A stretch of 64,000 nucleotides of DNA from Synechococcus sp. CS-1329 (lineage in GTDB: Bacteria; Cyanobacteriota; Cyanobacteriia; PCC-6307; Cyanobiaceae): positions 1 through 64,000 of the forward strand of contig NZ_JAHLYS010000016.1 of the NCBI RefSeq assembly GCF_025128055.1, given 5' to 3'. Made by a program: the position numbers and the translations under genes. Below, piece after piece: positions 4,876-49,800 of this stretch. Positions within the stretch are counted from its first letter, which is position 1, and each line of letters begins with the position of its first letter. Below the pieces are notes generated by a model. That model made no database searches. It was not told where the DNA came from and saw nothing but the letters and a program-made list of their open reading frames with translations.

Positions 4876-4938
4876 TCAGGTCTCCGATCGGTCGGGGCAC
4901 CGTGTGCCTCCGAGCCCCACGCGCGGTGCGGCCACTGT

Positions 4939-5232
4939 TCATCTTGCCTCAGAGGCTGCAGCACGTGTCTGGTTCAGCCGTTCCTCCAGCGCCATGTAGA
5001 TGGAATCCGACACCTGACAGCGCAGGGAGCGCTGCAGGCGTTTGCGGCGCCGGGCGTCGTCGATGCAGCTGCTGGAAGGACAGAGGTAGGCCGAGCGGCC
5101 CATGGCCCCGGTGGCCGGCCCCTCAAGCACCACCCCTTTCCCGTCGAATGGGCGGATGATCCGCCAGAGCAGACGGCGATCCTGCCGCTCCCGGCAGGAC
5201 ACGCAACGCCGCAGCACAACACCCACGCTCAC
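4939..5232 (-). CDS. ylxR: YlxR family (DUF448) RNA-binding protein
   Basis: A 97-residue basic protein with the YlxR signature: RRCVSCRE near the start, GRSAYLCPS in the middle and a basic helix RRRKRLQRSL. YlxR proteins are small nucleic-acid-binding proteins always found between nusA and infB; their exact role is unsettled. The start codon overlaps the nusA stop by 4 bases, which suggests translational coupling. Confidence 0.93.
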   Translation of the reverse strand: MSVGVVLRRCVSCRERQDRRLLWRIIRPFDGKGVVLEGPATGAMGRSAYLCPSSSCIDDARRRKRLQRSLRCQVSDSIYMALEERLNQTRAAASEAR

Positions 5233-6728
5233 CGCAGTTCGACGGCGGCTTCATCTGCTGGATCCACTGGAGCGGCCTCGGTGTCCGCTTCGGCTACAAG
5301 TTCAGCCTTGCTCTCGATGCCGGTTTCGGTTTCCGACCCGATTTCCGCCGCAGGGCCCTCCGCTGCATCCTGCGCTTCGGCTTCGCCACCTTCGCCAGCT
5401 TGGCTGGGCTCGCCATAGCCGACGTAGCCATTCTCGTCTTCGGGCAGGGGATAGAGCTCGCGCAGGCGAGCATCCTCCTCGGCGCGGTTGGCCTGCTCGA
5501 CCGCCAGCCGGGCTTCGGCCTCGGCCTGCTGGCGCTCATCGTCCTCGCGCAGGGCGATCAGTTCAGCAGCCCGGGCGTCCTCGCTGATCTGGTCGTAGTC
5601 GGAGGCATTTTTGATATCGATCTTCCAGCCGGTGAGCCGTGCCGCCAAGCGAACGTTCTGACCCTCACGGCCGATCGCCAGGCTGAGCTGGTCGGGGGGA
5701 ACGAGCACATGGGCGTGCTGGCCGACGGGGTCCACCAGTCGCACCATCTCGACGCGGGCTGGGCTGAGGGAATTGGCCAGATACTGCCCAGGATCAGGCG
5801 ACCAGCGGATCACGTCGATCTTTTCGCCGCGCAGCTCGTTGACCACCTGCTGGATACGGGAGCCCCGGGCGCCGATGCAGGCGCCCACCGGGTCCACTTC
5901 GCGCTCGACGCTGTCGACGGCCACCTTGGTGCGCGGACCGACGGCCCGTGAGGGAGGGTTGGCTTCGCGGGCCACGGCCACGATCCGCACGGAACCTTCC
6001 TGGATTTCCGGAACTTCATTCTCGAACAGATACACCACCAGACCAGCATTCGCCCGGGAGACGAACAGCTGAGGTCCGCGACGGGGCACCTCACTCACTT
6101 CCTTGAGGAAGACCTTGAAGGTTGCGTTGGCTCGGTAGTTGTCATTGGGCAGTTGATCGCGCCGTGGCAGTTCCGCTTCCACCTCAGGCCGGCCCAGGCC
6201 TGAGCTGACCGCCATGATCACCGACTGGCGCTCAAAACGAATCACCCGGGCGGTGAGCACCGGATCCTCGAGATCGGCGAATTCCTCCTGGATCATCCGC
6301 CGCTGCTGGTCCCGAAGTTTCTGGGCCAGCACCTGCTTGGTGGTGGCGGCGGCCATCCGGCCGAAGTCGTCTTTTTCGGGGGTGACATCCAGCACCACGG
6401 TGTCGCCGATCTGAGCGTCTTCTGCCACCTGCTGCACTTCGGCAAGGGCGATCTGGTGATCCTCGCTCTCCACCTCATCGACAATGATCTTGCTGGCCAG
6501 CACCCGGTAGCCCTCTTCATCGAGATCGAGGGCCACATCAAAATTGCTGAAGTAGTCCTCCTCGAAAGGGTCTTCACTGATGCCCAGGTAGAGGGTGCGG
6601 CGGTAGCGCTCGTAGCCCTTGAGCAGAGCCTCGCGCAGGGCTGCCTCCACCACCTGAGTGGGAAGTTTTTTCTCCTCACTGATGTCCTCGATCAGGTTCT
6701 GAAGACCGGGGAGGAGAACGAGTGCCAT
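5229..6728 (-). CDS. nusA: transcription termination/antitermination factor NusA
   Basis: NusA binds RNA polymerase and RNA to control pausing, termination and antitermination. The 499-residue protein has an N-terminal polymerase-binding domain (about 1-125), an S1 domain (about 130-200) and two KH domains (about 230-375; note GACIGARGSRIQ and AIGREGQNVRLAARL). It ends in an acidic tail rich in E and A from about residue 420 instead of the enterobacterial acidic repeats. It lies between rimP (46-base gap) and ylxR (4-base overlap). Confidence 0.97.
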   Translation of the reverse strand: MALVLLPGLQNLIEDISEEKKLPTQVVEAALREALLKGYERYRRTLYLGISEDPFEEDYFSNFDVALDLDEEGYRVLASKIIVDEVESEDHQIALAEVQQVAEDAQIGDTVVLDVTPEKDDFGRMAAATTKQVLAQKLRDQQRRMIQEEFADLEDPVLTARVIRFERQSVIMAVSSGLGRPEVEAELPRRDQLPNDNYRANATFKVFLKEVSEVPRRGPQLFVSRANAGLVVYLFENEVPEIQEGSVRIVAVAREANPPSRAVGPRTKVAVDSVEREVDPVGACIGARGSRIQQVVNELRGEKIDVIRWSPDPGQYLANSLSPARVEMVRLVDPVGQHAHVLVPPDQLSLAIGREGQNVRLAARLTGWKIDIKNASDYDQISEDARAAELIALREDDERQQAEAEARLAVEQANRAEEDARLRELYPLPEDENGYVGYGEPSQAGEGGEAEAQDAAEGPAAEIGSETETGIESKAELVAEADTEAAPVDPADEAAVELR

Positions 6729-30014: not shown

Positions 30015-31283
30015 TCAGCTGAGCTGATCGAGGCCTGAGCGGATCACGGCATAGCAGTGCTCCAGCTGCTGCTCGCTGAGACAGAGCGGCGGCAGAAGGT
30101 ACACCACATGGCCCAGGGGCCTCAGGAACACTCCGGCCTCGAGGGCGTGCCGCTGCAGCTGGCGGCCGGCGGGATGGAGATAGCCGGGCTGCTCCACCGC
30201 CAGATCGAAGGCGGCGATGGTGCCGCACAGCCGAGGCCGCTGCACCAGGGGGTGGGCCGACAGGGCCTGCAGATGGGGCTGATGGCGGGCCTCGAAGCCC
30301 TCGTGGAGGGCGGGCTGCTGCTGGAGCAGATCCAGACTGGCGTTGGCGGCGGCGCAGCCGAGCGGATTGGCCGTGAAGCTGTGGCCGTGGTACAGGGTGT
30401 GACTGGGGTCGTCGCTGATGAAGCCCTGGTAGATCCGTTCGCTCGCCAGGGTGACGCCCATCGGCAGAAAGCCGCCGGTGAGGCCCTTGGAGAGGGCGAC
30501 GAGATCAGGGCTGATGCCGGCCCGGCCGCAGGCGAAGAGGGCGCCGGTGCGGCCGAAACCCGTCATCACTTCATCGGCGATCAGCAGGGCGCCGGCCCGC
30601 CGCACCCGTTGCTCCAGTTGGCGCAGGAAACCCTCGCGCACCATGGCCATGCCGCTGGCACCCTGCACCAGCGGCTCAAGGATCACCGCGGCGGTGGGCA
30701 CCTCCAGCAGTCGCTCCAGCGCCGAGAGGGCTTCGGCTTCCTTGCGCTCCACCTCCGGATCGTCCCACCAGGTGGCGGGCCACGGGGCGCGGGTCACCGG
30801 CGAGAGCAGGGGCTCGAACGGGGCGGAGAAAAGGGAGCGCTCCCCCAGGGCCATGGCCCCGAAGGTGTCGCCGTGATAAGCCCCCTCGAAGGCGATCAGC
30901 TGCCGCCGCTGTGAGCCCTGGTTGCGCCACCACTGCCAGGCCATCTTCAGGGCCACCTCCACGGCGGTGGAGCCGTCGTCGGAGAAGAACAGTCGCTGCA
31001 GCCCCGAGGCGGCGCTCAGCCGCTCGGCCAGCCGCTCGGCGGGGGGATGGCGGAAGTTGGCGAAGATCACCTGCTCCAGCTGTAGGGCCTGCTCCGCCAC
31101 CGCCGCGGCGATGCTGGGCTCGCCATGGCCGTGCAGGGTCACCCACCAGCTGCTGATGGCATCGATCAGCTCACGGCCGTCGTCGAGTTCGAGCAGAGCA
31201 CCGCGGCCGGCCACCGCCCGCAGGGGCGGATCGGCCCGGGCCACCTGGGTGGTGGGGTGCCAGAGATGGGGATGCCAGCTCAA
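30015..31283 (-). CDS. bioA: adenosylmethionine-8-amino-7-oxononanoate aminotransferase
   Basis: BioA moves an amino group from S-adenosylmethionine to KAPA to make DAPA in biotin synthesis. It is a fold-type I PLP enzyme: IADEVMTGFGRTG and the PLP lysine in LSKGLTGGFLPMG (Lys266 with this start). The TTG at 31283 gives 422 residues, near the family norm, and begins just before SWHPHLWHPTTQ. An ATG at 31415 would add 44 Ala/Pro-rich residues overlapping the small gene upstream and was rejected. Last gene of the bio operon. Confidence 0.93.
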   Translation of the reverse strand: MSWHPHLWHPTTQVARADPPLRAVAGRGALLELDDGRELIDAISSWWVTLHGHGEPSIAAAVAEQALQLEQVIFANFRHPPAERLAERLSAASGLQRLFFSDDGSTAVEVALKMAWQWWRNQGSQRRQLIAFEGAYHGDTFGAMALGERSLFSAPFEPLLSPVTRAPWPATWWDDPEVERKEAEALSALERLLEVPTAAVILEPLVQGASGMAMVREGFLRQLEQRVRRAGALLIADEVMTGFGRTGALFACGRAGISPDLVALSKGLTGGFLPMGVTLASERIYQGFISDDPSHTLYHGHSFTANPLGCAAANASLDLLQQQPALHEGFEARHQPHLQALSAHPLVQRPRLCGTIAAFDLAVEQPGYLHPAGRQLQRHALEAGVFLRPLGHVVYLLPPLCLSEQQLEHCYAVIRSGLDQLS

Positions 31284-31332
31284 GGGTTCGGCGGGGGTTG
31301 CATCAGCTGGATCTGCATTGGCTGGGGCTGCA

Positions 31333-31488
31333 TCAGCGGCACCGCTTCTCCAGGCGGGCTGCTTCGGAGGCCCAGGGTCCGCAGTTGAACCAGCGCACCA
31401 TCCCCACTTCCACATCGGTGAAGAGCACCAGGATGCCGCTGCAGAGCAGGGCCACTGACGCGCTCACAAACAGATTTCCACGTGTCAT
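31333..31488 (-). CDS. 51-residue membrane protein in the biotin operon
   Basis: The ATG at 31488 overlaps the bioD stop by 4 bases (ATGA), and the frame runs 51 codons to a TGA 49 bases before the proposed bioA start. The product has one hydrophobic helix (LFVSASVALLCSGILVLF, about 6-23), then TDVEVGMVRWFNCGPW and a charged end, with cysteines at 16, 36 and 50. I know no family for it. Overlap with bioD and membrane-protein composition make it a likely gene. Confidence 0.65.
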   Translation of the reverse strand: MTRGNLFVSASVALLCSGILVLFTDVEVGMVRWFNCGPWASEAARLEKRCR

Positions 31489-32123
31489 CGGGCCAGATTA
31501 CGGGCCAGGCCACTGGCCTGCCATTGCTCGGCGAGGGCCTGGCGATCCAGCTGTGTCAGGGGGGGCAGGCAGGCCAGCACCGGTGCCCCGGTCATGGCCT
31601 CCAGGGTGCGGGGGTTGTCGGGGTGGGGGGGGCCGTTGAGCACCAGGCCCAACAGAGGGATGCCTCTGCTGCGCAGGGCTTCCACCGACAGCAGCGTGTG
31701 GTTGAGGGTGCCGAGGCCGCTGCGGGCCACCAGCACGACCGGCAGGCCCCAGCGGCCGACCTGATCGATCTGGAGGCTGTCGAGGCGCAGGGGCACCAGC
31801 AGGCCGCCGGCGGTTTCCACCACCAGCGGACCCCTCACCAGGGGCAGTGCCAGGCGCTCCAGCTCGATCGGCCGCTGCTCCAGCTCCGCGGCCCAGTGGG
31901 GTGAGACCGGATGGCTGTAGCGGTAGGCCTCCGGCAGCAGCCGCCCTGCGGCCTCGCTGGGGGTGAGACCCAGCAGGGCCGCCACGCGGGCCGTGTCGCC
32001 CCCCTCCTCCAGGCCGCACTGCACCGGCTTCCAGTACTGCGCTCCAAGGCCCTGCACCAGCAGGGCGCTCACCACGGTCTTGCCCACATCGGTGTCGGTG
32101 CCGCAGACCACCAGCCGTGTCAT
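31485..32123 (-). CDS. bioD: dethiobiotin synthetase
   Basis: BioD closes the ureido ring of biotin from DAPA, CO2 and ATP. The 212-residue protein has the P-loop variant GTDTDVGKT (residues 8-16) and conserved VETAGGLLVPL. It starts 4 bases after bioC and its stop overlaps the small membrane-protein gene by 4 bases. Confidence 0.96.
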   Translation of the reverse strand: MTRLVVCGTDTDVGKTVVSALLVQGLGAQYWKPVQCGLEEGGDTARVAALLGLTPSEAAGRLLPEAYRYSHPVSPHWAAELEQRPIELERLALPLVRGPLVVETAGGLLVPLRLDSLQIDQVGRWGLPVVLVARSGLGTLNHTLLSVEALRSRGIPLLGLVLNGPPHPDNPRTLEAMTGAPVLACLPPLTQLDRQALAEQWQASGLARNLAR

Positions 32124-32127
32124 CGCT

Positions 32128-32946
32128 TCAGCTCCGTTGAGGTTGATGGCCGAGCAGCAGCAGCACGTCCCAGCTCAGGCGCCTGTGACCGTCGGAGTCG
32201 TGGGGCCAGTGGGCCTCCAGCCGCCGCCAGGCTCCCACCCCGAGGGGTGCTGCAGCGGTGCTGCCCGCACCGATGGCGCCCATGGGCCGCAGCAGGGCCC
32301 GGCCGCTGTGGCCGCGCTGGCTGAAGCGCAGGGTCGTGGCCAGGTGCAGCTCCAGGCGCTGGGCGGCCACTGCCTGCAGGCGGTCTCCCTCGGGCAGGGA
32401 CAGGGCGGTGCAGGGCACGCCGGCGGCAGCGGCCGCCTGGCGCCACTGGGGGAAGCTGCCGGCGGTGGGCACGGCCAGTCCCAGCCAGCCCCCCGGCGCC
32501 AGGGCGGCGCACCACTGATCCAGACTGGCGCAGGGATCCTCCAGCCAGTGCAGCGCGAAGCTCGACACCAGCAACGCCGCACTGTCCAGGCCGTCGGGCA
32601 GGCCGTCGTTCAGGTCCCAGAGCAGTTGGGGAGCAGCAGCAGGGGTGGCCGCAGCCGATGCCTCGGTCCGTCGGCGGGCTCCCTCCTCCAGCAGGGCCGC
32701 GCAGGCATCGAGGCGCAGCAGCTCCAGGCCGGGCTGCTGCTGCTCCAGGGCGTTGCTGAGCAGACCGGAACCTGCCCCCAGATCCGCCATCGGGCCGGTA
32801 GGGAGGGGCAGGTTCCGGCAGTGGTGGGCCAGCCGCCAGGCCACCGTCCGCTGCAGGCTGGCGGCGGCGTTGTAGTGACGGGCCCGACGGCTGAAGGCCT
32901 GCCGCACCCGATCCGCCAAGGGGGGGGCTGAGCGCAGCAGCACCAT
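32128..32946 (-). CDS. bioC: malonyl-ACP O-methyltransferase BioC
   Basis: BioC methylates malonyl-ACP so that fatty-acid enzymes can build the pimeloyl chain of biotin. The 272-residue protein has a class I SAM site MADLGAGSGLLSNAL (about 53-67), RLDACAALLEEG and SSFALHWLEDP. The ATG at 32946 shares one base with the stop of the upstream esterase gene. Assignment rests on fold plus operon position. Confidence 0.9.
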   Translation of the reverse strand: MVLLRSAPPLADRVRQAFSRRARHYNAAASLQRTVAWRLAHHCRNLPLPTGPMADLGAGSGLLSNALEQQQPGLELLRLDACAALLEEGARRRTEASAAATPAAAPQLLWDLNDGLPDGLDSAALLVSSFALHWLEDPCASLDQWCAALAPGGWLGLAVPTAGSFPQWRQAAAAAGVPCTALSLPEGDRLQAVAAQRLELHLATTLRFSQRGHSGRALLRPMGAIGAGSTAAAPLGVGAWRRLEAHWPHDSDGHRRLSWDVLLLLGHQPQRS

Positions 32947-33644
32947 CAGCGTCTGGCCTCCAGCCAGTCCAGTACCGGCTCCAGCAGATCGCAATCCAGC
33001 AGGCTGTGGCCAGTGCCGACCATGGTCCAGAGCTCGGCGGCCGGCAGGGCCAGGGCCAGGGCCGATCGGCTCTCGGGGGCCACGATGCGATCGGCTCCGG
33101 CCTCCACGATCAGGCTGCGGGCGCCGCTGGGGTAGACGGTGGGTACGGCGCTGCACTGCTCCAGCAGCAGCAGATCCTGACGCAACCGCTCAACCCCTTC
33201 GGCCGGCATGGAGGCCGAAGAGGGCCCTGCCGGCAGCCGCTCCACCGCGGCGGGAGCGGCGGCTTCGCGCAGGAAGTCGTTGAGCATGGCGGTGGTGTCG
33301 CCGGCCTCCAGGCGCTGGCCCATGCCGCGCAGGGCCTGCCGCCAGCGCCGGCCGCCGGGCCCCGTGGGCACGAAGCGCCCGAAGCTGGCCAGCAGCACCA
33401 CCGCCTCGGCCTGCGCCAGCACCGCCTCTGGCAGCAGGTGCAGCCCGAGCGAATGCACGATCACGACCCTGGGGCCGTTGTGCTGCGGCCACTGGGGGCG
33501 GCTAGGGGCCAGCTGGCCGTAGCCGCGCTCGCCGCTTTGCCAGCTCCAGCCGCGGCGGCCCGCCGCCTCCTGCCAGGGGTCCCAGGCTCGACTGTCGCCG
33601 GCCCAGCCGTGCATGGCGATCAGTTGCAGCGATGTGTGCTTCAT
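32946..33644 (-). CDS. bioK: pimeloyl-ACP methyl ester esterase, BioK type
   Basis: A 232-residue alpha/beta hydrolase expected to remove the methyl ester put on by BioC. A likely triad is Ser65 (VHSLG, with V where GxSxG has G), Asp185 (AGADRIV) and His213 (GTGHSLLD). Marine picocyanobacteria use the BioK esterase in place of BioH, and position between bioF and bioC supports that. Start overlaps the bioF stop by 4 bases. Confidence 0.8.
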   Translation of the reverse strand: MKHTSLQLIAMHGWAGDSRAWDPWQEAAGRRGWSWQSGERGYGQLAPSRPQWPQHNGPRVVIVHSLGLHLLPEAVLAQAEAVVLLASFGRFVPTGPGGRRWRQALRGMGQRLEAGDTTAMLNDFLREAAAPAAVERLPAGPSSASMPAEGVERLRQDLLLLEQCSAVPTVYPSGARSLIVEAGADRIVAPESRSALALALPAAELWTMVGTGHSLLDCDLLEPVLDWLEARR

Positions 33645-46878: not shown

Positions 46879-49800
46879 TCAGATCGCTCCGCGGGGAGGC
46901 GGCGTCAGCCCGGCGTTGCCGGCATAGAGCAGAGCTGTGCGATTCACCGTGGCCAAGGGGATCCCATCGGCGCTGGCCATACCCTTGATGTAGGGAACCG
47001 TGTCACGGCCGAAGCTGCTGGCGAATTCTTTGCCGGAGAGCAGGTCGTCGAGGGCGGCCAGCTGGCCCTGCTTGCCGCGGGTGGCCAGATAACGGCTCAC
47101 CTCCTTGGGCTGGGCGGCCCGGCCCAGCAGGGCGAGATAGGCCGCTGAGGCCGCCCGCAGCGGTGCCATGCGGTTGAGCCGCTGCTGGAAGAGATCGGAT
47201 CCGGCGATCACCGCCACGAACTCCGACACCGACAGGCGTCCGTCACGCAGTTGCGATTCAGCATCTCCCAAACGCTCAGCCGCCAGAGGGATCCGGTTCA
47301 GCAGTTGCCTGTAGGTGGCTTCCACCACCTGCTGGAGCATGGCCTCATCGGCCTCGGGCAGCAGCATCACTGGCTGGCCGAGGCTGCGGCGGCGACTGAA
47401 GCCCTGGGGTCGTGCCCCACCGAGGGCCTTGGCCATGGCTGCACCGGCCTGGGGAGCCATCGCGGCACTGATGCCATTGGCGCTGACCTGAGCGCTCCAG
47501 CCACCGGTGACCTGGCCGCGAGCTGGGGTGGCCACCCGCGCAGCGCTGCCGACTTTCGAGCTCCAGCCACTGGAGGCAGTGCCTGGCCTTGAGGGGGCCA
47601 CCCGCCAGCGGCGGCTGGGCTCGGGGGGTTGACGCAGGCTTTGGGACCTGCTGCCAACAGGGGTGGCCGGAGCCGCTTCGCCATCGGCGAAACGGGCTGT
47701 CCAGCCGCCCACCACCTGGCGCAGGCGGCGGTCAGGCAAATTGCGCGGCGTCAGATCACCACTGCTGCGGAAGCTGCTGACCGGGCCCGTCTGGGGCCGA
47801 CTCACTGGGGTGAGGTCGGCAATGGTCGAGGGATCGATGGCACGGCGCAGGGCGGGAACCCTGCGGGCGTTGAGATCCGTGGGGGTGATGAAGCGCTCGT
47901 AGGGGACGGTGTCCTCACCGAAGGCCGCCAGATATTCCGGGCTGTTGACCATGGCGTCGACGACGCCATAGAAGCCTTGGCGTGCGGCCGTGTCGAAGTA
48001 GCTGTTGAGCTCACGTCGCCCGAAGGTGGGCCGCCCGATCAGGCGACGGTGCATCACCTCAATCGCTTTGGTGATGTAGAGGTTGGCCCAATACCGGCGC
48101 CGGAACGCTGTGGAGCGCGCCACCTGGCGAATGAATTCGCGCAGGCTGATGTCGCCGTTCTCGAGCTTGATCTCCTCCACCTTGAGCTGCTCACCGTCGT
48201 AGCCGCTGGTGCCGAGCACCTGCACATAGACGGCCCTGATCACTGCCTGGGTGCTGGCTTCGGTGCCGCGGATGCTGGGTTGGCCCCCGCGGCGGGGCAC
48301 CGAGCCGCCACCGGTGGCGATCTGCTGCAACCTCACCACCTTCGGACCGACGCGTCGGGGGGTGGAGCTCCGGAACTGGGGGCTGTTCATCTGGCCGGGT
48401 TCGGCCATGCCGTTGCCCACCAGGATGCGACGGGTGTCGTCGTTGAAGGGGGCCGAGCGAGTGGCCACTGAGGCCGTCCCCGAGGGGAAGATGGCACCGT
48501 AATTCAGGCCCAGGGGGTCGTTGCCGCCGCCGTAGGGGTGCTGATCGGGCAGGGGCTGGCGGTACGACGCGTAGAGCGTGATGTACTGCGGGGCGCCTTC
48601 GAAGGGTGCACTGAAGCGGAAGAGCTTGCGGTTCGAGCCCCAGCCGGCACTCTCCTGGGCCTCTTCACCAAGACCGCGCAGGTAAGGAACGGTTTCCTCC
48701 CCGAAGGTCTGGGCGTATTCCTGGGTGTTGATCAGGGAGTCCACCAGGCCGGCCAGTCCCTGCTGGCTGACGATGGCGAAGTAGCGGCGGAATTCCTCGA
48801 TCGTGCTGACGCCACGGCCGAGGAAATGACGGAAGGCCAGTTCCACCACCCGGCTGTTGGAGAAGCGGCCGTAAAACTGGCGGCGGTATTCCTTGCTGCG
48901 GCCCAGGGCACGGATGAACTCCCGCATCGAGAGCTGTCCCTGCGACACCTGGGTGGCTTCCACGGGGGCCACCACCTGGGAGTAGCCCTTGACGATGTCC
49001 CGCTGGAACACCTGCCGGTAGGCGGCACGGATCACCTCGGCCTTCTCGCGGCCGGAGAGGCCCTGCTTCATCACGAAGCGCTGACGGGATTCGGCGGCCA
49101 GCGCATAGATGGCGGGCAGCTGCAATCCCTGATTCTCGGGACTGCCCAGGCGCTGGCGCGCCGAGGGGGTGGGAACTGCCAGCTCCTTGAGCAGCACGTT
49201 GAAGCAGTCGATCACCAGTTGCCTGGCTTGCGAGTCCTTGCTGAACAGGTTGGCGGCGGCGGCCCGCATCTCCTGCAGGGCCACGTTGGTGGCGGCCAGG
49301 GAGCAGGCCTTCTCGAGCACGTCGCGCAGGCCGCGGGTGTTCACCGCGAGGATGCTGGGGTCGCCGGCCACCAGGGCATAGCCCACGTAGCGCAGGAACC
49401 AGCCCATGTCGCGCAGCGACTTGCGCATGCGCTCGGTGCCGTAGCGGGCCACGCTGATGGGGCTGAAGCCGGCGGGGAGTACCACCCGCACGTCGGCATC
49501 GGCCTGGACTCCTTCGAGGATCCGTCCCAGCAGACCGGTGCCACCACTGCCCTGGGCAAAGGTACGCACGGATGTGGCGGCGGCCACCTGGTCGCTGGCC
49601 AACACCGTGGTTTCCAGCGCACCCACGTTGAAGGGGGTCAGGGGAGCGTCGAGATAGGAGAGCGGCGTACCGCCGGCAAAAATGCGGTTGGCGGCCTTGG
49701 CCACGATCGCATCGGCATTGGCGGAGATCAGCCGAGCCGCTTCAACGCGGGCCGAGCCGCTTCGGTAAAAGGTGAGCAAAGTCTCGAGCTCCACCTTCTC

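Follow-up and report, generated by a model that had tools for sequence, protein, structure and literature searches.

The gene designated sm here is a genuine, previously overlooked gene that is restricted to the Cyanobiaceae. It is situated in a 64,000 nt stretch of Synechococcus sp. CS-1329 DNA (the window; contig NZ_JAHLYS010000016.1, positions 1 to 64,000), within a biotin operon with the gene order bioF, a 232 aa gene, bioC, bioD, sm, bioA (Table 1). The best explanation, which we hold to be somewhat better than an even bet (roughly 0.55), is that sm encodes a single-pass microprotein that serves a larger membrane complex as an accessory or regulatory subunit and is a passenger in the biotin operon.

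Table 1. Coordinates of sm, its motifs and the adjoining biotin genes in the window
Feature	Position	Strand	Basis
sm, 51-codon gene of bitopic membrane microprotein	31333..31488	(-)	ORF, conservation, dN/dS, codon-shuffle test
ATGA overlap, bioD stop / sm start	31485..31488	(-)	sequence; same overlap or short gap in relatives
Single membrane helix, sm codons 6-24	31417..31473	(-)	Kyte-Doolittle maximum; AlphaFold helix
CX13C, Cys36...Cys50, predicted extracytoplasmic tail	31339..31383	(-)	Cys invariance; conserved spacing
bioD, dethiobiotin synthetase, directly upstream of sm	31485..32123	(-)	Pfam AAA_26 2.2e-61
bioC, upstream of bioD	32128..32946	(-)	ORF; bioC-bioD order conserved in relatives
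bioA, downstream of sm (probable start)	30015..31283	(-)	in-frame start conservation, nine genomes

The sm open reading frame and its distribution

The sm product is a 51 aa chain, MTRGNLFVSASVALLCSGILVLFTDVEVGMVRWFNCGPWASEAARLEKRCR. A first-pass annotation of the window had pointed out this frame and its 4-base overlap with bioD, and both are present: the TGA stop of bioD and the sm start codon share the bases ATGA. With this overlap, translational coupling of sm to bioD is possible. The same annotation described part of the chain as conserved-looking, proposed a dN/dS analysis, and regarded a frame broken or not conserved in relatives as evidence against the gene. The comparison with relatives did not refute it. 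Relatives are found in 201 of 400 family genomes and the sequence is under purifying selection. The median dN/dS of sm is 0.23 vs 0.21 for bioD (36 pairwise comparisons within the genus). Nine genomes of the genus show no stops in the sm frame, and variable sites are distributed as 10/4/22 over codon positions 1/2/3. Variable amino acid columns number 12, compared with an expected 22.2 +/- 2.1 in the same nine genomes, and when sites of equal base were shuffled, 0 of 2000 codon shuffles were as conserved as sm.

A spurious open frame, conserved merely through its neighbouring genes, has to be considered, as chance long frames are frequent in high G+C genomes and overlapping frames run on upstream in some relatives. 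However, the shuffle test and the dN/dS value, together with a protein sequence that is still recognisable at stand-alone sites without bio genes, make this extremely unlikely. A spurious frame as the origin of sm is refuted by the selection tests.

A protein search with sm gives a match in 167 of 300 genomes of the same family, and the profile search that yields the 201 genomes covers 22 of 59 genera. Carriers are Synechococcus, Cyanobium and some Prochlorococcus-like genomes, and include Synechococcus sp. WH 5701 (G182). Outside the host family there are merely chance-level matches (E-value 6e-4 or worse), several of them with stops; other cyanobacteria outside the Cyanobiaceae show no convincing relative, and no phage or viral copies were found. 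The sm protein of the window has no match in Pfam or NCBIfam, and other members give weak chance matches for single sequences (E-value = 0.008 or worse). Thus sm is a well-conserved family, carried by roughly one in two of the Cyanobiaceae sampled, for which neither database has a model. The literature searched, mostly outside subscription journals, contains no description of the gene. Picocyanobacteria are among the major primary producers of marine and fresh waters, and the catalogue of their small membrane proteins is poor.

The bioA gene displays two candidate start codons. One, an ATG at 31415, lies inside sm and is missing in one relative (L026); the other, a TTG at 31283, is shared by all nine genomes of the genus. 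Because the TTG is conserved in all nine and the ATG is not, bioA probably starts at the TTG and hence would not overlap sm. When bioA is called from the ATG, a false overlap with sm results, which may hide sm from gene callers. The segment from the sm stop to bioA (31284-31332) is approximately 30 bases longer than its counterpart in the remaining eight genomes of the genus. The 232 aa gene between bioC and bioF (32946-33644, (-)) shows no Pfam match; we take it to stand where a pimeloyl-ester esterase (BioK/BioG) would be expected.

Linkage to bioD and separation from biotin synthesis

Directly behind bioD and on the same strand is where sm is found in 116 of 116 genomes with both genes listed, a batch from about 20 genera that is biased toward high-scoring sm sequences. 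The offset from the end of the bioD match is -1 to 89 nt. The low-scoring genomes were checked apart; sm adjoins bioD in 14 of the 22 that were resolved, a number that leaves out G100 and G122, and is separate from it in eight. By genomic linkage (116/116 and 14/22), sm thus goes with the biotin genes. Genus g25 accounts for six of the eight exceptions and g44 for two. In G024 sm is about 736 kb away from bioD, in the other seven it is on a different contig, and the unlinked sm loci examined in g25 and g44 carry no bio genes nearby.

The constant neighbour of sm is bioD, not bioA. In several lineages sm is followed not by bioA but, in convergent orientation, by a DUF3143 gene and a DnaJ-like gene, the same two genes that stand after bioA in the window. 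In nearly all such lineages examined bioA is present elsewhere; it was not found in the fragmented genome G087. As sm remains by bioD while bioA is elsewhere, it is bioA that moved and sm that stayed. At two loci (L012, positions 5262-5369, and L035) all that follows sm of bioA is a piece of its C-terminus (residues 390-425), which looks like the outcome of a bioA deletion. Upstream open frames of 268-536 aa resembled BioD-sm fusions but proved to be out of frame with bioD.

The first-pass annotation had offered two readings of this arrangement, a link between biotin synthesis and the membrane or an unrelated passenger. A product that is part of the biotin system might tether BioD, or a complex for biotin synthesis, to the membrane; alternatively it might sense biotin and tune the operon through coupled translation. 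The same-strand position beside bioD in all 116 genomes and the ATGA overlap or short gaps speak for such a role, and linkage this strong could reflect a functional tie rather than inertia, which counts against a passenger. The persistence of sm with bioD where bioA leaves is an argument on both sides. The co-occurrence pattern is different: of the 197 good genomes, 195 have bioD and 128 of the 197 have sm. Many lineages with intact bioC, bioD and bioA are without sm, e.g. the small A+T-rich genomes G001, G003, G010, G013, G017, G039, G056 and G058 and the high-G+C genomes G018 and G032. In these ten, bioD mostly has bioC and bioA nearby, and in G018 bioD and bioA abut. Conversely, sm persists away from bioD in g25 and g44, a stand-alone paralogue is found in the host genus, and a fusion of bioD with sm is present in no genome checked.

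Biotin synthesis therefore does not seem to need sm. As losses, moves and duplication separate sm from the biotin genes, it is not read as a component of the pathway and most likely works in something other than biotin synthesis. We regard a role in the biotin system as rather unlikely; of the two readings offered, the passenger fits better and the membrane link is left unsupported. In the case of sm, a firm operon neighbourhood is by itself no proof of functional association, and natural losses, relocations and a duplication already part its function from biotin synthesis. BioY was also considered as a partner, but it is present in 34 of 34 genomes tested and so is uninformative.

Protein anatomy and proposed role

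A single membrane helix, as named in the early annotation, is confirmed by hydropathy. The best 19-residue Kyte-Doolittle window of the sm sequence scores 2.33 from residue 6, and the lowest best-window value across the family is 2.05. There is one hydrophobic segment of about 19 residues, as in a single-pass (bitopic) protein. The AlphaFold2 model displays one helix at residues 3-36, with a pLDDT of 89 in residues 11-20 and about 60 beyond the helix (mean pLDDT 72, pTM 0.39). The more positive flank of a membrane helix faces the cytoplasm (the positive-inside rule). The flanks of sm have a mean charge of +1.4 on the N-terminal side and -0.6 on the C-terminal side, and the N-terminal side is the more positive in 31 of 41 members. 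Because of this modest charge signal, the N-terminus is predicted to be cytoplasmic and the tail to lie outside the cytoplasm.

Cys36, Cys50 and Thr24 are invariant in the 41 members, and Cys16, Leu20, Val21, Phe23, Asp25, Glu27, Trp33 and Gly37 are nearly so. The cysteine spacing is 13 in 34 of 35 representative sequences and 14 in one, and CX13C is retained in relocated and duplicated copies as well. The pair is invariant, its predicted extracytoplasmic location being derived from the charge bias only. Cys36 and Cys50 would most likely form a disulfide-closed loop, a putative feature in the part of the AlphaFold2 model that has low confidence. The sm tails are truncated or altered at L134 (G022), L136 (G020) and L095 (G059), all from incomplete genomes, and these are possibly decaying copies.

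Since sm is separable from the biotin genes in both directions, it is read as a complex subunit that borrows the expression of the bio operon. The gene would be transcribed with the biotin operon, whose promoter would be its usual one, and its translation would probably be coupled to that of bioD through the overlap. The short, positively charged N-terminus would remain in the cytoplasm, the helix (residues 6-24) would span the membrane, and the tail of about 27 residues would extend into the periplasm or the lumen of the thylakoid. In that compartment the closed loop between Cys36 and Cys50 would sit beside the conserved RW..CG motif, and the protein would be a subunit with an accessory or regulatory part in a larger membrane complex. 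The subunit reading is suggested by the size, the single helix, the invariant tail cysteines and the family-wide selection, which resemble those of small stabilising or regulating subunits.

The cyanobacterial photosynthetic apparatus contains 19 small proteins of <50 residues (PMC5126843). Proteins of the PsbM, PsbX, PsaM, PetN and NdhP kind, which usually stabilise larger complexes (PMC5126843), are like sm in having less than about 55 residues, one helix and lineage-wide conservation. Unlike them, sm matches no solved chain, has two conserved cysteines in its tail and is found in one cyanobacterial family. No PDB chain matches sm by sequence or profile at an E-value up to 10, in a collection where alpha-cyanobacterial complexes may be unrepresented. 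Norf4 and HliR1 of Synechocystis (PMC5126843) are, like sm, overlooked membrane micro-proteins without an assigned role. In the reported distributions, no alpha-cyanobacterium carries a Norf4 homologue and HliR1 does not extend beyond Synechocystis (PMC5126843); by these distributions the Cyanobiaceae-confined sm is set apart from both. Gupta and Mathews (2010, PMC2823733) describe 22 proteins that are common to Clade C Synechococcus and Prochlorococcus MIT9303 and MIT9313 and missing from other Prochlorococcus. The distribution of sm resembles that pattern, a likeness of distribution alone.

Somewhat more specifically, and as a tentative suggestion that we consider less likely than not, sm could belong to a photosynthetic or respiratory membrane complex as a subunit specific to picocyanobacteria, its disulfide loop facing the lumen, and could have been overlooked since structural work favoured other cyanobacteria. 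Streamlined Prochlorococcus-like genomes and a few other lineages would then have lost it independently. In size and single helix sm is similar to CydX, but a CydX-like small subunit of cytochrome bd oxidase has next to no probability: CydA is found in 1 of 32 genomes, yet 18 of the 32 have sm. Cytochrome bd as a general partner is excluded by this distribution. The same verdict applies to a phycobilisome-linked factor, as linkers are absent in G029, where sm is present, and abundant in G008, G018, G025 and G049, where it is absent. Thus linker and sm distributions do not track.

A 1107 aa open frame elsewhere in the window contains two phycobilisome linker domains (47893-49050, (-)) and is probably the core-membrane linker ApcE.

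Extra copies of sm

The host genome carries a second sm copy (C4:10957-11109), which is stand-alone and 65% identical to the first. Stand-alone extra copies are also found in G035 (two), G076, G170, G182 and G099. In an sm tree of 51 columns, which is weakly resolved, the extra copies form one clade (support 99/99), and this clade nests within the bioD-linked copies of the host genus and its relative g48 (support 98/94). Because of this nesting, the extra copies probably go back to a duplication in the host genus or close to it. G099 belongs to another genus and its extra copy lies amid transposase fragments, which suggests that this copy was acquired by transfer.

Extra copies in the genus and a copy among transposase fragments would also be in keeping with a small hydrophobic toxin-like peptide of the Hok kind, the layout of which, a cytoplasmic N-terminus and a periplasmic tail with two cysteines, is like that predicted for sm. 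But sm is usually single-copy and keeps its place in a housekeeping operon throughout a family, and the search for phage or viral copies gave none; a toxin is very unlikely.

In two genomes a gene for a small high-light-inducible-like protein with a chlorophyll-binding motif (L049, 3137-3349, and L051, about 4900-5119) is situated near the stand-alone sm paralogue.
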